Shown in pieces: positions 1,153 through 63,757 of a stretch of DNA of 64,000 nt; position 1 is the first letter of the stretch, and each line of letters begins with the position of its first letter. This stretch comes from Candidatus Kuenenia stuttgartensis (lineage in GTDB: Bacteria > Planctomycetota > Planctomycetia > Planctomycetales > Planctomycetaceae). The stretch is taken from assembly GCA_945904015.1 (NCBI GenBank), contig CAMDPK010000010.1, forward strand, positions 1 through 64,000, written 5' to 3'. Under the pieces are notes generated by a model. That model was not told where the DNA came from. It worked only from the letters and a program-made list of their open reading frames with translations, and searched no databases. The position numbers and the translations under genes were made by a program.

Positions 1153-2592
1153 TCAACCCTTCATCACTTTTTCCGCAGCAGACTCGCCGCTGGCAATCGA
1201 GTCGGGGATGCCGACACCGGTCAAGAAATTGCCGGCGAGAGCCAAACCGGACGATTGCTCTGCTGCGGCTTGAATGCGGGCGACGAGGTCGAGGTGCCCG
1301 ACGTGATATTGCGGCATCGCCCGCGTGTGTCGGTAGACGTTCACGAAGTCCGGTTTGCCGCGCACTCCGAGCAATTCGCTCAGCTCACGACGGACAAGTT
1401 CCATAATCGCTGTATCGTCGAGGTCGCAGAGTTCTGGCTGCAAGGCTCCGCCGATGAACGTGCGCAGCAGGATGTGACCGTCGGGTGCTCGGCCAGGGAA
1501 TTTGCGGCTGGTGAACGAGACGGCTAGGATTTTTCGTCGCTCGATGTGTGGGATGACGAGGCCGAAGGCGTCGAGCGGATGGTTGATGTCCGCCAGCTTG
1601 TGGCCGCTGGCGACGACAATGGTCGAGGCATATTCGATGCGGTTCAGTTCGGCGGACAGCGCGGAGCATTCGCCGGCAAGCACGCTCGCTGCGACGAACG
1701 ATGGCACGGCGAGGATGACGGCGTCAAAAAAGGATGGGCACTCTTGCCCGTCCGCGTTCATGGGTGAAGGGACGGGCAAGAGTGCCCATCCTCCATTCGG
1801 ATTCGGTCGTAAGGCGCGGACCGAGACGCCGCAGCGAACGTCCGCGAACTCAGTCACCCGACGAGACAACACAGAAACCAACTCTTCGATCCCGTTGGGC
1901 AGACTCACGAACAGGCCATATCGCGCGCCGCTGGTACCGCTCGTGTCGCCGCGTGAACGGTCACGAGACTGACGCAGCGCGGCGCGAATCAGGCTGCCGT
2001 GTTGTTGTTCCATTTCGATGAAGCGCGGCAGTGTCGCGAGCAGGCTGAGCTTTTCCGGATCGGCGGTGTAGATGCCGCCGACGAGCGGTTGCACGAGTCG
2101 CTCGAAGGTTTCATTTCCGCAACGGCGGCGAACGAAGTCGGCGAGGCTCTCGTCGGCTCCATCACGGCGAGATCGGACGAACGCTTCGGCGAGCAACCGC
2201 AGCTTGCCGCGCCAGCTCAGCAGCGGTGAGCGAAGCATCGGCCACGCTTGCTCTGGCACCATCAACTGAAATCCTTCGGGAACCGGATGCGCTCGGCCGT
2301 TGCGGAGCACGAGCGACTTGCGGAATTGCGCGTTCGTCGGAATCAGCCGCTCGGTGAGTCCGAGCTTCTCGCACAACCGCACGCCTTCCGGCTTGTTCGT
2401 GATCCACATGTCGGCGGCGTGTTCGACGAGGTACTCGCCGCTGCGTTCGGTTCGCAGCACTCCTCCGAGCCGGTCTGATGCTTCGAGCAGCGTGATTTGC
2501 ACGTCGCGCCGTTGTTCGGCCGCGAGTTCATGAACTCGCAGCGCGGCCGAGAGGCCGGAGATGCCGCCGCCGATGATCGCGATGCGGCTCAT
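1153..2592 (-). CDS. hemG: Protoporphyrinogen/coproporphyrinogen oxidase (HemY-type flavoprotein)
   Basis: A 479-residue FAD-dependent oxidase of heme synthesis. It oxidises protoporphyrinogen IX or, in the coproporphyrin-dependent route, coproporphyrinogen III. Visible features are the N-terminal dinucleotide fold 'IAIIGGGISGLSAALR', the 'ASDRLGGVLRT' second FAD contact, 'GGIYTADPEKLS', and the C-terminal 'LAGNFLTGVGIPDSIASG' FAD-binding segment. The start ATG overlaps the stop of the upstream GroES-like gene (TCAT at 2589-2592 on the plus strand), which implies translational coupling. Oddity: about residues 268-287 are encoded by a perfect 21-bp inverted repeat (1732-1752/1771-1791) that also occurs outside genes at 59021-59062. 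It therefore looks like an in-frame repeat insertion between the substrate and FAD domains; the reading frame stays open. Whether the product is the porphyrin or coproporphyrin type cannot be decided. Confidence 0.92.
   Translation of the reverse strand: MSRIAIIGGGISGLSAALRVHELAAEQRRDVQITLLEASDRLGGVLRTERSGEYLVEHAADMWITNKPEGVRLCEKLGLTERLIPTNAQFRKSLVLRNGRAHPVPEGFQLMVPEQAWPMLRSPLLSWRGKLRLLAEAFVRSRRDGADESLADFVRRRCGNETFERLVQPLVGGIYTADPEKLSLLATLPRFIEMEQQHGSLIRAALRQSRDRSRGDTSGTSGARYGLFVSLPNGIEELVSVLSRRVTEFADVRCGVSVRALRPNPNGGWALLPVPSPMNADGQECPSFFDAVILAVPSFVAASVLAGECSALSAELNRIEYASTIVVASGHKLADINHPLDAFGLVIPHIERRKILAVSFTSRKFPGRAPDGHILLRTFIGGALQPELCDLDDTAIMELVRRELSELLGVRGKPDFVNVYRHTRAMPQYHVGHLDLVARIQAAAEQSSGLALAGNFLTGVGIPDSIASGESAAEKVMKG
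1732..1791. repeat. In-frame palindromic repeat inside hemG (family A)
   Basis: Two perfectly complementary 21-bp arms (1732-1752 and 1771-1791, core GGGCACTCTTGCCCGTC) flank an 18-bp loop. A second copy with one arm mismatch lies between genes at 59021-59062. Here the element is translated as part of hemG. Confidence 0.9.
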
Positions 2593-9145: not shown

Positions 9146-9212
9146 CGTAGCCACGTTCCCCAGAACGTGGGTGTTTCGCGAATTTGCCCACGTTCTGGCG
9201 AACGTGACTACG
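9146..9212. repeat. Palindromic repeat family C, copy 1
   Basis: Arms 9146-9171 (GTAGCCACGTTCCCCAGAAC core) and 9187-9212 are complementary with two mismatches. They lie between the EF-hand gene start and the kinase stop. A perfect copy is at 53785-53849. Confidence 0.85.
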
Positions 9213-42148: not shown

Positions 42149-42235
42149 ACCAGCACGACGCGCCAGCGAGTGGTGAACGCCGTCCGAGGATTGCGAGTCG
42201 TCTGTCCCGACCACTCGCTGGCGCGTCGTGCTGGT
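42149..42235. repeat. Palindromic repeat family B, copy 1 (likely bidirectional terminator)
   Basis: Perfect 25-bp arms 42149-42173 and 42211-42235 (core CAGCACGACGCGCCAGCGAG) have a 37-bp loop. It lies exactly between convergent genes ending at 42121 and 42249. Sister copies are at 48569-48637 and 50629-50696. Confidence 0.93.
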
Positions 42236-48560: not shown

Positions 48561-48568
48561 TCCGGGAC

Positions 48569-48637
48569 ACCAGCACGACGCGCCAGCGAGTGGTTGTCTT
48601 CGATGCCGTTGATCACTCGCTGGCACGTCGTGCTGGT
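48569..48637. repeat. Palindromic repeat family B, copy 2
   Basis: Arms 48569-48593 and 48614-48637 pair with a single mismatch (core GACGCGCCAGCGAGTGG). It starts 8 bp after the carB stop and 20 bp before the helicase ATG, so it could insulate the two same-strand genes. Confidence 0.9.
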
Positions 48638-48656
48638 ATCAGAAGTCCAACACCAA

Positions 48657-50624
48657 ATGCCACTCGATCATTTCCAACGGTTGCTGCGCTGCCTGGAACT
48701 GGAAGCGGAGGCAGAAGCGGCGGAGATCGTGAAGCGGTCGCAGCGGGCCAGCGGCGACGCGGCCGAGCGGTCCGGCATCTGTCTCGTCGGCTTGGCGATT
48801 CGTGAGGAGGAGACGGGGTTCGGCGGACGGGCGGTGGTCACGCTGGGCAAACGGGATCGGCGGGCGGAGTTGCCTTGGACGAAGTTGAATTCCGGCAGCC
48901 CGGTCGTGTTGTCCGAAGAGCAGGCCGCCGAGAGCGGTGCGTGGCGAGGCGTCGTGACCGATCGGAATCGAGAGACGATCACCGTCGTGCTGGCTCAGTC
49001 GCCGGAGCCGACGGCCGATCGTCCGACGTTTCGATTGGACTTGTCGTCGGATGAAATCTCGCGCGTGCGGCAGCGATCGGCACTTCAGCAAGTCGCGACT
49101 GCGGACAGCGGACGGCTCGCGGCGTTGAAACGCAAACTGCTTGGCGAGGAAGCGCCGACCAGCAGTGAGAGTGACATCAGCCGGAACGCGCTAGCGTCCG
49201 GTTCAGATCATCGGCAACCGGACGCTAGCGCGTACCGGCTGATGAACGCAGGAACGTCAACACCAACCGATCGGCCGCTCGATGAATCGCAGCGGGCGGC
49301 GGTCAGTCACGCTCTGGCGGCGAAAGAGGTCGCAATCATTCACGGCCCGCCGGGGACGGGAAAGACGACGGCGGTCGTGGAACTCATTCGACAGGCGGTA
49401 CGACGGGGTGAGCGTGTGTTGGCGTGTGCTCCCAGCAATCTGGCGGTCGACAATTTGCTGGAGCGATTGCTGGCCGCTGGCGAACGAGCGATCCGAATTG
49501 GGCATCCCGCCCGCGTGTTGCCCGAACTGCGTGAGCACACGCTCGACTTGCAAGTTGCCGCGCATCCCGATTTGAAGTTGGCTCGCGAGTGGACCAAGCA
49601 GGCGTGGGCACTGCGGCGTCAGGCCGGCAAGTTCACGCGAACCGCTCCGGAACGCGGGGCGCGGCGCGAACAGCGCGACGAGGCGAAGCGGTTGCTTGCC
49701 GACGCTCGGCGAATGCAAGAGCGGCTCGTCGCGCACTTGCTCGATTCGGCGACGGTCGTGTGTGCGACGCTGACGGGGCTGGATGACGAGTTGCTCGGCA
49801 ACTTGCAATTCGACCTGGCGGTGATCGACGAGGCGGCTCAAACCACTGAGCCAGCCTGTTGGATTCCATTGCTGCGAGCCAAACGGCTCGTGCTGGCGGG
49901 GGATCATTGCCAGTTGCCGCCGACCATCTTGTCGAGCGAGGCTCTGCGGCTGGGCTTCGACCTCAGCCTGATGCAGCGTCTCGTCACGCAATGGGGCGAC
50001 GTGATCTCGCGACAACTCACGACGCAGTACCGGATGCACGAGCAAATCATGCGGTTCTCGTCGGCGGAGTTTTACGAGTCCTCACTCATCGCCGCCGACA
50101 GTGTGCGCGAACATCTCTTGGCCGACCTGCCGCACGTCTCGCCAATCCCGCTGACTCAAACGGCGATGCGGTTCATCGACACGGCTGGCTCGGACTGCGT
50201 CGAGCAGGCGGAGTCCGAAGGCTCCAGCCGCAACAATCCCGGCGAAGCAGACGTCGTTGCTCGGCAAGTCCAGGAGCTGCTCGCCGCGGGAGTCGCTCCG
50301 TCCGAGATCGCGGTCATCACGCCGTATGCGGCGCAGGCTCGTCTGCTGCGAACGCTCATCGGCAACGCGGCGATCGAGATCGACACGGTCGACGGCTTCC
50401 AAGGCCGCGAGAAAGAAGCGGTCGTCATTTCGCTCGTGAGATCGAACACAACGGGCGAAGTCGGCTTTCTGGCGGACACGCGCCGCACGAACGTCGCGCT
50501 CACGCGAGCACGCCGCAAACTGATCGTCATCGGCGACAGCAGCACGCTCGCCAATCACGAGTTCTATCGCCGGCTGCTCGATCACTTTGAACGCGAGGGA
50601 GCCTACGGAACGGTGTGGGATTGA
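48657..50624 (+). CDS. SF1 (SMUBP-2/IGHMBP2-like) DNA/RNA helicase
   Basis: A 655-residue UPF1/SMUBP-2-like helicase. An N-terminal beta-rich domain (1-170) precedes the motor core: Walker A 'IIHGPPGTGKTT' (GPPGTGKTT at 230-238), 'CAPSNLAVDNLLERL' (Ia), Walker B 'FDLAVIDEAAQTTEP' near 390, 'LAGDHCQLPPTI' (III), 'QYRMHEQIMRFSS' (IV), 'ITPYAAQARLLR', 'DTVDGFQGREKEAVVISLVRSN' (V) and 'NVALTRARRKLIVIGD' (VI). This group unwinds DNA or RNA 5' to 3'; the cellular job is unknown. Residues 173-196 are encoded by a 29-bp inverted repeat (49175-49244), an in-frame insertion in the linker just before the motor. Confidence 0.92.
   Translation: MPLDHFQRLLRCLELEAEAEAAEIVKRSQRASGDAAERSGICLVGLAIREEETGFGGRAVVTLGKRDRRAELPWTKLNSGSPVVLSEEQAAESGAWRGVVTDRNRETITVVLAQSPEPTADRPTFRLDLSSDEISRVRQRSALQQVATADSGRLAALKRKLLGEEAPTSSESDISRNALASGSDHRQPDASAYRLMNAGTSTPTDRPLDESQRAAVSHALAAKEVAIIHGPPGTGKTTAVVELIRQAVRRGERVLACAPSNLAVDNLLERLLAAGERAIRIGHPARVLPELREHTLDLQVAAHPDLKLAREWTKQAWALRRQAGKFTRTAPERGARREQRDEAKRLLADARRMQERLVAHLLDSATVVCATLTGLDDELLGNLQFDLAVIDEAAQTTEPACWIPLLRAKRLVLAGDHCQLPPTILSSEALRLGFDLSLMQRLVTQWGDVISRQLTTQYRMHEQIMRFSSAEFYESSLIAADSVREHLLADLPHVSPIPLTQTAMRFIDTAGSDCVEQAESEGSSRNNPGEADVVARQVQELLAAGVAPSEIAVITPYAAQARLLRTLIGNAAIEIDTVDGFQGREKEAVVISLVRSNTTGEVGFLADTRRTNVALTRARRKLIVIGDSSTLANHEFYRRLLDHFEREGAYGTVWD
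49175..49244. repeat. In-frame palindromic repeat inside the helicase gene (family G)
   Basis: The 29-bp arms 49175-49203 and 49216-49244 (core ACGCGCTAGCGTCCGGTT) have one mismatch and a 12-bp loop. The reading frame continues through both arms ('DISRNALASGSDHRQPDASAYRLMNAG'). Confidence 0.92.
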
Positions 50625-50628
50625 CACC

Positions 50629-50696
50629 CCAGCACGACGCGCCAGCGAGTGGTCAACCGCTGGAACAGCAACCACTCGCTGGCGCGTCGTGCTGGT
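50629..50696. repeat. Palindromic repeat family B, copy 3 (likely bidirectional terminator)
   Basis: Perfect arms 50629-50653 and 50671-50695 (core CAGCACGACGCGCCAGCGAG) have a 17-bp loop. It sits in the 84-bp gap between the convergent helicase and GntP genes. Confidence 0.93.
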
Positions 50697-52324: not shown

Positions 52325-53788
52325 AGCGTGCCTGTGCTGGTTGGAGAACGGTGGGTCGTGCCGACTGTTTCGGCATGGGGGTCCGTCTTCAATCCGTCCC
52401 TCGGCGAAGAGATCGCTCGTGTGCCGATGTGCGGAGCGGCCGAGGTTGAAGTCGCGGTTCAAGCGGCGGCAGCGGCTTTCACGACTTGGTCGAAGACAGC
52501 CGCTCCGGCGCGAGCTGCGAAGATGTTCGCGTTCAAGGCGCAGCTCGAATCGCACTTCGAGGAACTCGCCGCACTGATCACTCGTGAAAACGGCAAGACG
52601 TTGGAGGAGGCTCGCGGCGACGTGCGGCGCGGGATCGAAGTCGTCGATTTCGCCTGCGGGATTTCGCACCTTTGCAAGGGAGAAACTCTGCCGCAGGTCG
52701 CGGACGGCATCGACGGCGTGACGATGCGAGAACCGATCGGTGTCTGCGCCGGCATCACGCCGTTCAACTTTCCGGCGATGGTCCCGCTGTGGATGTTTCC
52801 GATTGCGATCGCCTGCGGCAACACATTCATTTTGAAACCGAGTGAGAAGGTTCCGCTGACGGCCGTGCGTTTGGCAGAATTGTTTCTCGAAGCGGGACTG
52901 CCTCCGGGCGTGTTGAACATCGTGCACGGCGGTCGCGAGGCAGTCGATGCGTTGCTGGAGCATCCTGGCATCGCGGCGATCAGCTTTGTCGGTTCGACCC
53001 GCGTCGCCGAGCATGTCTACGTCATTGGCTGCCGGCACGGGAAGCGAGTGCAAGCTGCGGGCGGCGCGAAAAACGTGATGATCGTGATGCCCGATGCGGA
53101 CCTCGACGCGACGACTCGCGCGATCATGGGTGCGGCCTTCGGCTGTGCTGGGCAGCGCTGCATGGCCGGCTCGATCCTGATGGGAGTCGGCGATGCGGCA
53201 CCGCAAGTGCGAGATCGACTCGCCGCCGCGATCGACAAGTTGGTGATCGGCGACACCTCAGCCAACCCCAAAGCAGACATGGGGCCAGTGATCGACTCCG
53301 CCTCACGCGAACGAATCCTGCGATCCATCGAATTGGGTGTCGCCGAAGGAGCCGCTCTGGTTCGTGGCGGCCAGCACGAGAGTCAGAGCCGTGGCTTTTT
53401 CGTTTCGCCGACACTGTTCGACCAAGCCAGTCCTGGCATGCACATCGCTCGCGAGGAGATTTTCGGACCGGTGCTGACGATGCTGCGACCGCGTGATCTC
53501 GACGAAGCGATCGCCTGGGCGAATCGGAATCCGTACGGAAACGGCGCGGTGATCTTCACCAACAGCGGCGGAGCGGCTCGGCAGTTCGCTCGCGAAGTGC
53601 AGTGCGGCATGGTCGGCGTGAACGTCGGCGTGCCGGCTCCGATGGCGGCGTTCGCGTTCTCCGGTTGGAACCGCTCGTTCTTCGGCGACCTGCATGTGCA
53701 AGGAATCGAAGGGGTGATGTTCTACACGCGGCAAAAGATTGTGCTGTCGCGCTGGGACAATGCGTATCGACGAACGCAAGGTTGGTAG
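52322..53788 (+). CDS. mmsA: CoA-acylating methylmalonate-semialdehyde dehydrogenase
   Basis: A 488-residue aldehyde dehydrogenase of the MmsA type. It turns malonate or methylmalonate semialdehyde and CoA into acetyl- or propionyl-CoA with NAD+. Visible: 'REPIGVCAGITPFNFPAMVPLWMFPIAIACGNTFILKPSEKVP', 'ISFVGSTRVAEHVYVIGCRHGKRVQAAGGAKNVMIVMPDADLD', the catalytic Cys280 in 'CAGQRCMAGS', 'EIFGPVLTMLRPRDLDEAIAWANRNPYGNGAVIFT' and 'VGVNVGVPAPMAAFAFSGW'. 'MVGVNVGVPAP' and 'FSGWNRSFFGDLH' are MmsA hallmarks. The ATG (52322, or 52319 one codon earlier) lies within a family K repeat unit. The TAG stop lies within a family C repeat. The gene is followed by an iron alcohol dehydrogenase. Confidence 0.93.
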   Translation: MSVPVLVGERWVVPTVSAWGSVFNPSLGEEIARVPMCGAAEVEVAVQAAAAAFTTWSKTAAPARAAKMFAFKAQLESHFEELAALITRENGKTLEEARGDVRRGIEVVDFACGISHLCKGETLPQVADGIDGVTMREPIGVCAGITPFNFPAMVPLWMFPIAIACGNTFILKPSEKVPLTAVRLAELFLEAGLPPGVLNIVHGGREAVDALLEHPGIAAISFVGSTRVAEHVYVIGCRHGKRVQAAGGAKNVMIVMPDADLDATTRAIMGAAFGCAGQRCMAGSILMGVGDAAPQVRDRLAAAIDKLVIGDTSANPKADMGPVIDSASRERILRSIELGVAEGAALVRGGQHESQSRGFFVSPTLFDQASPGMHIAREEIFGPVLTMLRPRDLDEAIAWANRNPYGNGAVIFTNSGGAARQFAREVQCGMVGVNVGVPAPMAAFAFSGWNRSFFGDLHVQGIEGVMFYTRQKIVLSRWDNAYRRTQGW

Positions 53789-53849
53789 CCACGTTCGCCA
53801 GAACGTGGGATTTGCGCAGCGTTCCCCACGTTCTGGCGAACGTGGCTAC
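53785..53849. repeat. Palindromic repeat family C, copy 2
   Basis: Perfect 25-bp arms 53785-53809 and 53825-53849 (core GCCACGTTCGCCAGAACGTG) with a 15-bp loop. The mmsA stop codon (TAG, 53786-53788) is inside the first arm. Could attenuate or terminate transcription between mmsA and the next gene. Confidence 0.93.
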
Positions 53850-59009: not shown

Positions 59010-59020
59010 AAGTTGTAAGT

Positions 59021-59062
59021 TGGGCACTCCTGCCCGACCGGACGGGCAAGAGTGCCCATCCT
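59021..59062. repeat. Palindromic repeat family A, intergenic copy
   Basis: Arms 59021-59036 (TGGGCACTCCTGCCCG) and 59043-59058 pair with one mismatch. The element lies between convergent genes and is homologous to the in-frame copy in hemG (1732-1791). Confidence 0.85.
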
Positions 59063-59064
59063 AC

Positions 59065-60872: not shown

Positions 60873-61069
60873 GGCTGTCTCCTTTTTGCGTCTCTTTGAG
60901 TTCTTTGCGGCCCACTGCCTTCATTCTGACTTGATGGCCGCAAGAAACGCAAAGAACCGCAAAAAGAAGATCAAAGCTGACAAACCGGCTTTGCTTTGCG
61001 CTTCCGCTGCAAAGCGGCTCCGGCCAAACTGATGCCGTTGCCGGATCGCGGTTCTGCGAGGAAGGGGCG

Positions 61070-63757
61070 ATGACGATGCGTCTGTGGTTTTGGTTGCTCG
61101 TGGTGTTGCTGGGCGGGTTTGTCGTTTCACGCAGCACCATCGCTGAGGAAACACCCGCCCCAAAATTTGAAACCGACATCGTGCCGATTCTGGAAGCACG
61201 CTGCCTCAAGTGTCATGGCGACGGGAAGCTCGAAGCGGGCTTGGATCTGCGGCGCAAGTTTTTGATTCTCAAAGGTGGCGACAGCGGAGCGGGATTCGTC
61301 GCTGAGAAGCCAGACGACAGTTTATTCATCCAAAAGATTATTGCCGATGAGATGCCACCCAAGGACGAAGGCCGGCTGGACGACAAGCAGAAGTCGCTCT
61401 TACGACGCTGGATCGCGACCGGAGCCAAGACCGTCGCCGAAAAAGAAAAACCGATCGACGAAGCCGAACAAGCCAGCCGCTTGTCCGAAGAAGATCGAGC
61501 GTACTGGGCCTTCCAGCCGCCAAAGAAACCGCCAGTCCCGCGTCTCGCAGATTTGAAATCTCAAATCTCAAATCTCAAATTTGCAATTTCAAATCCCATT
61601 GATGCCTACGTGCTCGCCAAGTTGGCTGAGAAAGGTTTGGCCTTCAATACAGAAGCCTCGAAACCAGTGCTGCTTCGGAGACTGACTTTCGATCTGCTCG
61701 GCCTGCCACCGACGCTTGATGAATTGGATGAATTCCTCGCCGACGAGTCGCCTGACGCCTACGAAAAAGTAGTGGATCGACTGCTCGCGTCGCCTCGATT
61801 CGGCGAGCGCTGGGGTCGGCAGTGGCTCGACATCGCGGGATATGCCGACTCGGACGGATACCTCGCGGCGGATAAGTTGCGGCCCGAGGCGTGGCGGTAT
61901 CGCGATTGGGTGATTCGGGCGATCAACAGCGATCTGCCGTATGACCAATTCGTGACGCAGCAGTTGGCGGGCGACGAACTCAGAGACTGGCGGCGAGCCG
62001 ACGAGATCACTCCGGAGGTTTACGATCAGCTCGTGGCGACCGGCTTCCTGCGAACGGCGCTCGACCCGACGTATCCCGGCTACATCGAACCAAACGAGGT
62101 CCATCAAGTCCTGGCCGACACGATGCAGATCGTCGGCACAACGTTCCTCGGCCTGACCGTGCATTGTGCTCGCTGCCACCAGCACAAGTTCGATCCGATT
62201 TCACAGCGCGACTATTACTCGCTGCAAGCAGTCTTCGGCGGGGCACTCGATCCCGCTCGCTGGCAGCCCTCCGAGGTGCGCGGGATTCCGTTTGCCAGCG
62301 AATCGGAAGAGGCACGTATCAACGAACACAACAAACAGACCGACGCTCGCATCACCGCGCTCACGGCATCGCTCAATGAACTGATACTGCGATTCCGCCG
62401 CCGCGTGCTGGCCCGGCCGATGGCTGATGGCCGAAAGCCGATCGCCGATATCCCAACCCTCGACAAGTTGATCGCCGCGTTGATTGTTGATGCCGCCAAA
62501 CGTAATGACGAGCAAAGGAAACTCATCGAACAACACGGACTCGCGAGCGTCTCACTGACCGAGGCCGATCTCGCCGCGCGCTTCAGCGATTACCGTGATG
62601 ACTCTGCCAAGCTCAAAGCCGCGCTCGCCGCCGAAGCCGCATTGAAGAAGACGATCACGCGCATTCGCGGTCTGACGGACATCGACGAGAAAGCCGCAGT
62701 CGGCCACATCCTGCGGCGCGGCGACTACAACAAACCCGGAGCGGAAGTCACTCCCGGAGTGGTGGAAGTACTTGCGCCCGCCGGATTCCAACTCACGCCG
62801 CAAGCCGGCTACAAAACGTCGGGACGTCGCACCGCACTCGCGCGCTGGCTGACATCGCCGGAGCATCCGCTGCTGGCTCGCGTGCATGTGAATCGTCTGT
62901 GGGCGGCGCACTTCGGCCGAGGCATCGTCCCGACCATCGCCAACTTCGGCCGCAGTGGAGCGAAGCCAACACACCCGGAGTTGTTGGATTGGTTGGCGAC
63001 GGAGTTCGTCAACGTAGACGAGTCACTCCGTGACTCGAATCTTTCCGGTCACGGAGTGACCGGTCTACGTTGGTCCCAAAAGCGTCTCCACCGCCTGATC
63101 GTCACCTCCGCCGCTTATCGCCAGTCGGCGGATGTCGATCTCGCAAAAAGTGCCGCCGACCCCAACAACATCCTGCTCGGTGCCTGGTCGCCGAAGCGGC
63201 ATCAGGGCGAAGTCGTGCGCGACAGTTTGCTGACAGTCTCCGCGCGACTGACACCGACACAGTTCGGCAAGTGGGCGAACGTCGCCGCGCAAGGCGACGG
63301 CTCGGTCATCGACACCGACGACGAACCAGGCCGCCGTCGCTCGATCTATCAAATCGTGCGCCGCAGCCAGCACCTCACGATGTTGGAACTCTTCGACACG
63401 CCGCTGATGGAAATCAACTGCCCGGAACGAACCGTCTCGACCGTCCCGCTGCAAGCCCTCGCAATGCTGCACGGGCCAATGTCCGACCGCGCTGCCGGCG
63501 GACTGACCGAACGCATCTGGTCCGCCGCTGTCACCGATTCCGACCGGATTCGCTTCGCGTTTCGATTGCTGTTCACTCGCGAACCGTCCGCCACGGAATC
63601 CGACCGCATCCTGCGAACACTCTCGGAACTTTCACGAGAACAACTCACGAACAAGCCCACGCCCACCGATCCCGAAAACGAAGCCGCCCTCAAAGCCGCG
63701 TGGCGGCAGGTCGCCCTGGTCCTGCTCAACAGCAATGAGTTTGTCTACGTGCATTGA
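61070..63757 (+). CDS. PSCyt1-PSCyt2-PSD1 exported cytochrome-like protein (second copy)
   Basis: An 895-residue relative of the gene at 4888, without the LamG insertion. It has a signal peptide (1-25), PSCyt1 with CLKCH at 45-49 and 'DEMPPKDEGRLDDKQKSLLRRWIATGAK', DUF1549/PSCyt2 ('PIDAYVLAKLAEKGL...LLGLPPT', '[25 protein letters not shown]') with CARCH at 366-370 ('CARCHQHKFDP'), a coiled-coil segment, and PSD1 ('VHVNRLWAAHFGRGIVPTIANFG', 'PERTVSTVPLQALAML'). The start is ATG 61070 (or 61076), with AGGAAGGGG upstream. Two in-frame repeats are present (61550-61597 and 63011-63071). It is followed 11 bp later by a DUF1501 gene, the usual planctomycete pairing. Confidence 0.93.
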   Translation: MTMRLWFWLLVVLLGGFVVSRSTIAEETPAPKFETDIVPILEARCLKCHGDGKLEAGLDLRRKFLILKGGDSGAGFVAEKPDDSLFIQKIIADEMPPKDEGRLDDKQKSLLRRWIATGAKTVAEKEKPIDEAEQASRLSEEDRAYWAFQPPKKPPVPRLADLKSQISNLKFAISNPIDAYVLAKLAEKGLAFNTEASKPVLLRRLTFDLLGLPPTLDELDEFLADESPDAYEKVVDRLLASPRFGERWGRQWLDIAGYADSDGYLAADKLRPEAWRYRDWVIRAINSDLPYDQFVTQQLAGDELRDWRRADEITPEVYDQLVATGFLRTALDPTYPGYIEPNEVHQVLADTMQIVGTTFLGLTVHCARCHQHKFDPISQRDYYSLQAVFGGALDPARWQPSEVRGIPFASESEEARINEHNKQTDARITALTASLNELILRFRRRVLARPMADGRKPIADIPTLDKLIAALIVDAAKRNDEQRKLIEQHGLASVSLTEADLAARFSDYRDDSAKLKAALAAEAALKKTITRIRGLTDIDEKAAVGHILRRGDYNKPGAEVTPGVVEVLAPAGFQLTPQAGYKTSGRRTALARWLTSPEHPLLARVHVNRLWAAHFGRGIVPTIANFGRSGAKPTHPELLDWLATEFVNVDESLRDSNLSGHGVTGLRWSQKRLHRLIVTSAAYRQSADVDLAKSAADPNNILLGAWSPKRHQGEVVRDSLLTVSARLTPTQFGKWANVAAQGDGSVIDTDDEPGRRRSIYQIVRRSQHLTMLELFDTPLMEINCPERTVSTVPLQALAMLHGPMSDRAAGGLTERIWSAAVTDSDRIRFAFRLLFTREPSATESDRILRTLSELSREQLTNKPTPTDPENEAALKAAWRQVALVLLNSNEFVYVH
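61550..61597. repeat. In-frame A/T-rich tandem repeat (family J), copy 2
   Basis: AAATCTC tandem units encode 'LKSQISNLKFAISN' at the PSCyt1/PSCyt2 junction, the same position as in the gene at 4888. Confidence 0.82.
63011..63071. repeat. In-frame palindromic repeat inside PSD1 gene (family H)
   Basis: Arms 63011-63037 (AACGTAGACGAGTCACTCCG...) and 63046-63071 (CGGTCACGGAGTGACCGG core) pair with a few mismatches and encode about residues 648-668 ('NVDESLRDSNLSGHGVTGLR'). Confidence 0.82.

Follow-up and report, generated by a model that had tools for sequence, protein, structure and literature searches.

A GTAG-tagged REP dimer in frame in a planctomycete protoporphyrinogen oxidase gene, and unrelated REP families in the same protein loops across one genus

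Introduction

REPINs, which are inverted pairs of REP sequences, have been described mainly between genes. Their mobilization in trans is attributed to RAYT, a Y1 transposase (Bertels and Rainey 2011, PMC3116915; PMC8266576). The GTAG REP super-family consists of short tagged hairpins that occur mostly as head-to-head dimers, in high copy and with several families per genome (Di Nocera et al. 2013, PMC3733652). Some GTAG REPs lie inside genes, where they code for 20-30 residues; Planctomycetes (R. baltica) are among their hosts, and recB of two Xanthomonas species carries different REPs at about the same site (PMC3733652). The palindromic elements of Rickettsia (RPEs) are mobile sequences of several families that sit in frame in housekeeping genes, and they are described as 100-150 bp long (Ogata 2000 and 2002, cited in PMC10969869). 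In orthologous genes, RPE-4, -6 and -7 occupy common sites, for which one diverged ancestral insertion was favoured and hot spots were left possible; the debate in Rickettsia is whether a site with different palindromes was hit several times independently or holds a single insertion that diverged (PMC3767692). A genus with many such sites, separately amplified families, empty sites and scars makes this question testable.

Here, we analyze a palindrome, family 1, from a 64,000-nucleotide stretch of planctomycete DNA (hereafter the window). Family 1 has the features that define the GTAG REP super-family, namely a GTAG-like tetranucleotide tag, a self-folding, imperfectly palindromic unit of 20-40 nt and dispersed copies that are often head-to-head. 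It differs in being a new family sequence with about half of its tags reading GGAG and with spacers unrelated between copies. Moreover, about a fifth of the sampled copies are in frame, and two or three families share a loop in six or more proteins within a single genus. With RPEs, family 1 has in common that it is an in-frame palindromic insertion in a conserved gene, absent from close homologues, and that different families lie at nearly the same site in orthologues. Unlike RPEs, it consists of paired 22-nt hairpins that bear GTAG-type tags and enclose a free spacer, and it measures 62 bp in HemG; both this size and an interior that is unconserved between copies, rather than shared family-wide, set it apart by the RPE descriptions. 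The first-pass annotation of this DNA had proposed that a heme gene absorbed a palindromic element like those of Rickettsia. The uptake of a mobile palindrome holds, as does the likeness in behavior, but by structure the element is a GTAG REP dimer and not a member of an RPE family. As in REPIN/RAYT systems, several families here flank RAYT genes, whereas family 1 is without a linked RAYT in the genomes sampled. Intragenic REPs and RPEs are already known; what is new is how widely, and how independently, the same loops have been colonized in one genus; we found no report of same-loop colonization for Planctomycetes in the open-access literature.

Results and discussion

A perfect inverted repeat encodes a loop of HemG

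The element and its host gene comprise the following features.

1153-2592, minus strand: host gene, encoding a 479-aa protoporphyrinogen oxidase (hemG / hemY / pgoX type); assigned by TIGR00562, AlphaFold model and solved relatives
1731-1792, no strand assigned: family-1 REP dimer GWALLPVPSPMNADGQECPS, in frame, HemG residues 267-288
1770-1792, minus strand: arm 1 (5' arm in gene sense) GGATGGGCACTCTTGCCCGTCC, encoding GWALLPV, itself a hairpin
1731-1753, plus strand: arm 2 (3' arm in gene sense), encoding DGQECPS
1754-1769, no strand assigned: 16-nt spacer of the HemG copy, unrelated to the spacers of other copies
1791-1794, minus strand: GGAG tag, 5' foot of the HemG element in gene sense

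The HemG protein matches TIGR00562 at 288.9 bits (cut-off 97.85), and the best solved matches of its AlphaFold model (mean pLDDT 92.7; 77-94 across the loop) are protoporphyrinogen oxidases, at Z 40-46. We retained the label hemG from the earlier annotation; HemY and PgoX are frequent names for an oxygen-type FAD enzyme of this kind. The inverted repeat had been called perfect, which it is, but its length had been put at 21 bp, and we found arms of 23 nt each (1731-1753 and 1770-1792), 100% complementary and 16 nt apart, in an element of 62 bp in total. The estimate of about 20 encoded residues agrees with the in-frame span of residues 267-288, for which the DNA encodes GWALLPV...DGQECPS. On the arm opposite the GGAG tag, the tag has decayed to AAAG. 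The 22-mer of the arm has exactly three exact occurrences in the window (at 1732, 1770 and 59040), with 0 expected from 100 dinucleotide shuffles, and the RNA strand of 1728-1795 folds at -54.7 kcal/mol, against -20.2 +/- 2.8 for shuffles (z -12.1). GWALLPV of arm 1 forms strand 269-274 in the HemG model; the remainder of the insert would be an exposed loop, judging by its position in the fold.

Among 95 distinct Planctomycetes HemGs, the peptide was found in two, those of the source genome (G000) and of its sister species (G009). Because it occurs in these two species alone, the palindrome is, by this alignment, an insertion unique to them, as first supposed; the same peptide on unrelated DNA was not encountered across planctomycetes. 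Inverted repeats whose perfect arms reach at least 14 nt are, in the 95 genes, confined to the insert loop and to the genus. In relatives outside the genus, the insert site is the most length-variable place of HemG (SD 3.9 residues). Native HemGs of relatives also have a β-hairpin there, as would be expected if the loop were native and its codons palindromic by chance. However, the 23-bp perfect repeat is identical to many other genomic copies, the element recurs in the sister genome (L032), which was assembled separately, and the reading frame is open and conserved on both sides of it. We consider that a native loop, or an assembly or pseudogene artefact, has next to no chance of being the explanation.

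Family 1 is a high-copy REP dimer

Family 1 is a GTAG/GGAG-tagged REP dimer, REPIN-like in that two 22-nt hairpin units lie head to head. The repeat proved to be genome-wide: its 18-nt core has 262 arms (up to 2 mismatches) in the 7.43-Mb genome, and a reversed control gave 0. The genomes analyzed are fragmented MAG assemblies. All 12 genus genomes carry the family, with 27 to 202 arms at one mismatch, G000 having 202. Outside the genus, among 297 genomes of the class, high copy was found in G219 only (141 arms), and the family is otherwise nearly absent. G219 belongs to another genus of the same family, and the other sampled genomes of that genus have 0 or 1 arms, which suggests a sporadic or horizontal burst.

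To describe the dimers, we sampled 71 family-1 sites of G000 by region, about half of all sites. Head-to-head (+-) arm pairs occur at 68 of the 71. In order, the layout comprises a tag, GATGGGCACTCTTGCCCGTCC, 0 to about 40 nt of spacer, which is unrelated between different sites, and the reverse complement. Arm-end tags are GTAG in 59 cases and GGAG in 57, together 116 of 132. A single unit folds on its own (-11.9 kcal/mol, z -3.2), and its stem shows a compensatory change at pair 3-20, where 206 arms have A-T and 27 have T-A.

About 16 of the 71 sampled copies lie in frame, in open frames whose coding signal extends to either side of the dimer, so the first-pass view that such elements are normally confined to spacers does not hold for this genome. 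The host genes encode PurL, an IscS-type cysteine desulfurase, ApbE, CbiM, GlcE, a heavy-metal P-type ATPase, two RND pumps, an ImuB-like protein (a name taken from reading the sequence, as no family matched) and PSCyt/PSD1 proteins. By hand tally, the first arm reads GxALLP in eight copies and GTLARP in eight, and no in-gene copy uses the frame in which GTAG supplies a stop. Spacer length equals that of the orthologue in 9/9 coding copies and in 9/14 intergenic ones; frame conservation would explain the difference, which falls short of significance (P 0.06).

Two host genes have further peculiarities. The ImuB-like gene (L271 / L083, G000 C90) is one open frame that contains four REP dimers, which belong to three families. 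A single 982-residue open frame (L024, 3-2948, minus strand) joins a heavy-metal P-type ATPase and an HflK/Band_7 domain, and also holds a REP dimer.

Arms are conserved as DNA

We compared nine genes between G000 and G009. In flanks, arms and spacers, respectively, silent sites diverge by 0.327, 0.077 and 0.272, and amino-acid-changing sites by 0.056, 0.051 and 0.224; dN/dS is 0.13 in flanks, 0.65 in arms and 0.79 in spacers. This pattern indicates that the flanks are under protein selection, the spacers nearly free and the arms held as DNA. The arms have 7 silent changes against 29.7 expected (Poisson P 6e-7), a low divergence that is partly an effect of ascertainment; in the subset found without using the element, there are 5 against 15.8 expected (P 0.0016). 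Arm divergence is 0.080 in intergenic copies and 0.071 in genes. Hypermutability of the spacers was also considered and is weakened, since the majority of orthologous spacers can be aligned and have diverged to roughly the extent expected of neutral DNA.

These values bear on whether selection retains GWALLPV...DGQECPS for enzyme function. The HemG arms differ from those of the sister species at three positions, 3/3 silent, and the model has a confident hairpin for the peptide, both as recruitment would predict; the differences in the HemG spacer are mainly amino-acid-changing substitutions. Across the nine genes, however, the arms are poor in silent as well as amino-acid changes, which places the constraint on DNA, and sister species have no such peptide, or another one, at the HemG site. 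We therefore rate recruitment as highly improbable. The comparison argues instead that the conserved arms would reflect a DNA-level process (copying, conversion or hairpin function) and not use of the peptide. With arms conserved as DNA inside genes, the question arises of what acts on the hairpins.

Unrelated families occupy the same loops

In the HemG loop, family 1 is present in G000 and G009, family 2 (GTCGGGAGTCTTTTTC) in G002 and G004, and a degenerate third family in G007. HemG of G006 (L045) has an insert of about 68 residues in the same loop, in which no repeat or inverted repeat was detected. At the IscS site, we found family 1 in G000, G009 and G002, family 2 in G004 and family 4 in G006 and G007; a second IscS site holds two further families, in G002 and G007. 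PurL carries family 1, the GTAGACGAGTCAC family (also in the window, at 63010-63072) and the GGGAGGGCGAGGCTCCC family; the three lie close to residue 681 in an open frame of 1055 residues. Altogether, three families each were found in HemG, IscS and PurL, and two each in ApbE, CbiM and both ImuB sites. In CbiM of G006, a complete new dimer stands beside half of an older family-4 dimer.

Other-family events fall within 22 residues of the G000 site in 10 of 12 cases, from an event list assembled by hand, where 1.4 would be expected from uniform placement over the scanned range. This coincidence was reached 0 times in 200,000 simulation trials, which account for the partial coverage of some orthologues. 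The genes had been selected for carrying family 1 in G000 and for being mostly single copy, irrespective of the same-loop property.

Families are also distributed differently among species: arms of family 2 number 355 in G004, 152 in G010 and 128 in G002, and are lacking from G001, G003 and G008 (0 arms). In a six-protein tree, G000 groups with G009, and G007 groups with G004, G010 and G002; therefore, for PurL, three different families occur in the latter clade alone. ImuB site 2 is clean and unoccupied in G003 and G010, and IscS of G011 has a scar that retains only CTTCGGAGGATGGGC of the first arm. These empty sites and the scar show both gain and loss of dimers. PurL of G007 (L272) is closer to that of G000 (95%) than PurL of G009 is (93%), and in HemG the order is reversed (79% vs 87%); gene exchange that carried a REP along is a possible cause.

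One ancient insertion per site, later diverged into apparent families, has been proposed for RPE-4/6/7 (PMC3767692). Its counterpart here would accommodate the fact that genus members share occupied loops and that some copies are degenerate (G007 HemG, G001 ApbE). Against it, the families show no sequence relationship, and each forms a high-copy repeat in its own right, with its own species distribution; their arms match elsewhere in the genus at 90-100%, and ImuB site 2 is clean in G003 and G010. Such an origin is very improbable, and independent invasion of the same loops by unrelated families is the better reading here.

How the loops came to be shared is a separate matter. Transposases might prefer certain sites or existing REP DNA, with the first REP serving as a landing pad. 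The occurrence of different families in one loop, in HemG, IscS (two sites), PurL, ApbE, ImuB (two sites) and CbiM, would fit such target choice, as would the new dimer adjoining half an older one in G006 CbiM. However, the HemG site is the most indel-prone loop outside the genus too, so tolerance alone may suffice, and no common motif is visible in unoccupied sites, for which clean pre-insertion DNA is available for a minority of events. We consider target choice unlikely. A related idea, to which we give somewhat more room while holding it only tentatively, is that loops act as safe harbors with succession: later families would insert into or replace a resident dimer, giving a continuing turnover of unrelated palindromes, and the resident arms would be held as DNA by copy correction or hairpin function, suppressing even silent changes within essential genes.

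Candidate mobilization and the fate of in-gene copies

A search of the 8 Y1 genes of G000, and of the sampled relatives, found no RAYT flanked by family 1, and in one genus genome with family-1 arms no Y1 gene was detected. For these reasons, we infer the mover of family 1 from other families. RAYT genes are flanked by families 3, 8 and 4 in G000 and by families 7 and Y in G007, and families 3, 4, 7, 8 and Y are also found in occupied protein loops. In two genera, RAYT genes are bracketed on both sides by REPs of families 8 and 3: L354 (G000 C5), L384 (G219), L353 (G000 C69) and L380 (G219).

We hold it very probable that a mobile REP dimer inserted in HemG, spread genome-wide and is tolerated at the loop, and that the same loops were taken by unrelated families; insertion, genome spread, in-frame placement, loop tolerance and same-loop takeover by unrelated REP families are directly documented by the comparisons above. 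The family-1 dimer would be a non-autonomous mobile palindrome, most likely mobilized as single-stranded hairpins by a transposase of the RAYT type (Y1). Its insertion in HemG would date to the ancestor of the source species and its sister, and the landing place would be a surface β-hairpin tolerant of length change. The arms contain no stop codon in any of the six frames; together with a total length that fits the frame, this predicts read-through translation, with the arm peptide supplying one strand and the loop of the modeled HemG hairpin. Selection would remove insertions elsewhere in genes while tolerated ones survive, and the effect on the HemG enzyme is probably near-neutral. Such dimers would provide a steady source of new loops of 20-30 residues in essential enzymes, beyond obligate intracellular bacteria.

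Other palindromes in the window

Three further REP dimers of the window belong to family 1 or to other families.

59015-59064, no strand assigned: second family-1 REP dimer, between genes, spacer 0 nt, GTAG-type ends (GTAA...CTAC)
63010-63072, no strand assigned: REP dimer of another family, GTAGACGAGTCACTCCGTGACTCG, in frame in a PSCyt2/PSD1 gene (ORF 60935-63754, plus strand)
49175-49244, no strand assigned: REP dimer of a further family, CGGAACGCGCTAGCGTCCGGTT, in frame in an SMUBP-2/HCS1-type helicase gene (ORF 48561-50621, plus strand)

The first of these had been reported at 59021-59062 as the same element as in HemG. It does lie between genes, but its arms (59015-59039 and 59040-59064) are imperfect, at 84% complementarity, and no spacer separates them. 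Relatives of the dimer at 63010-63072 sit in PurL of two other species, and the dimer of the helicase gene lies between the 1B and AAA domains.

The CCAGCACGACGCGCCAGCGAGTGGT palindrome family has three copies, at 42149-42235, 48566-48640 and 50629-50695, which are without good coding frames; those at 48566 and 50629 flank the helicase gene (48561-50621). The GTAGCCACGTTCGCCAGAACGTGGG family has two copies in the window, at 9146-9212 and 53785-53849, and a relative of it lies inside the ImuB-like gene of the same genome.
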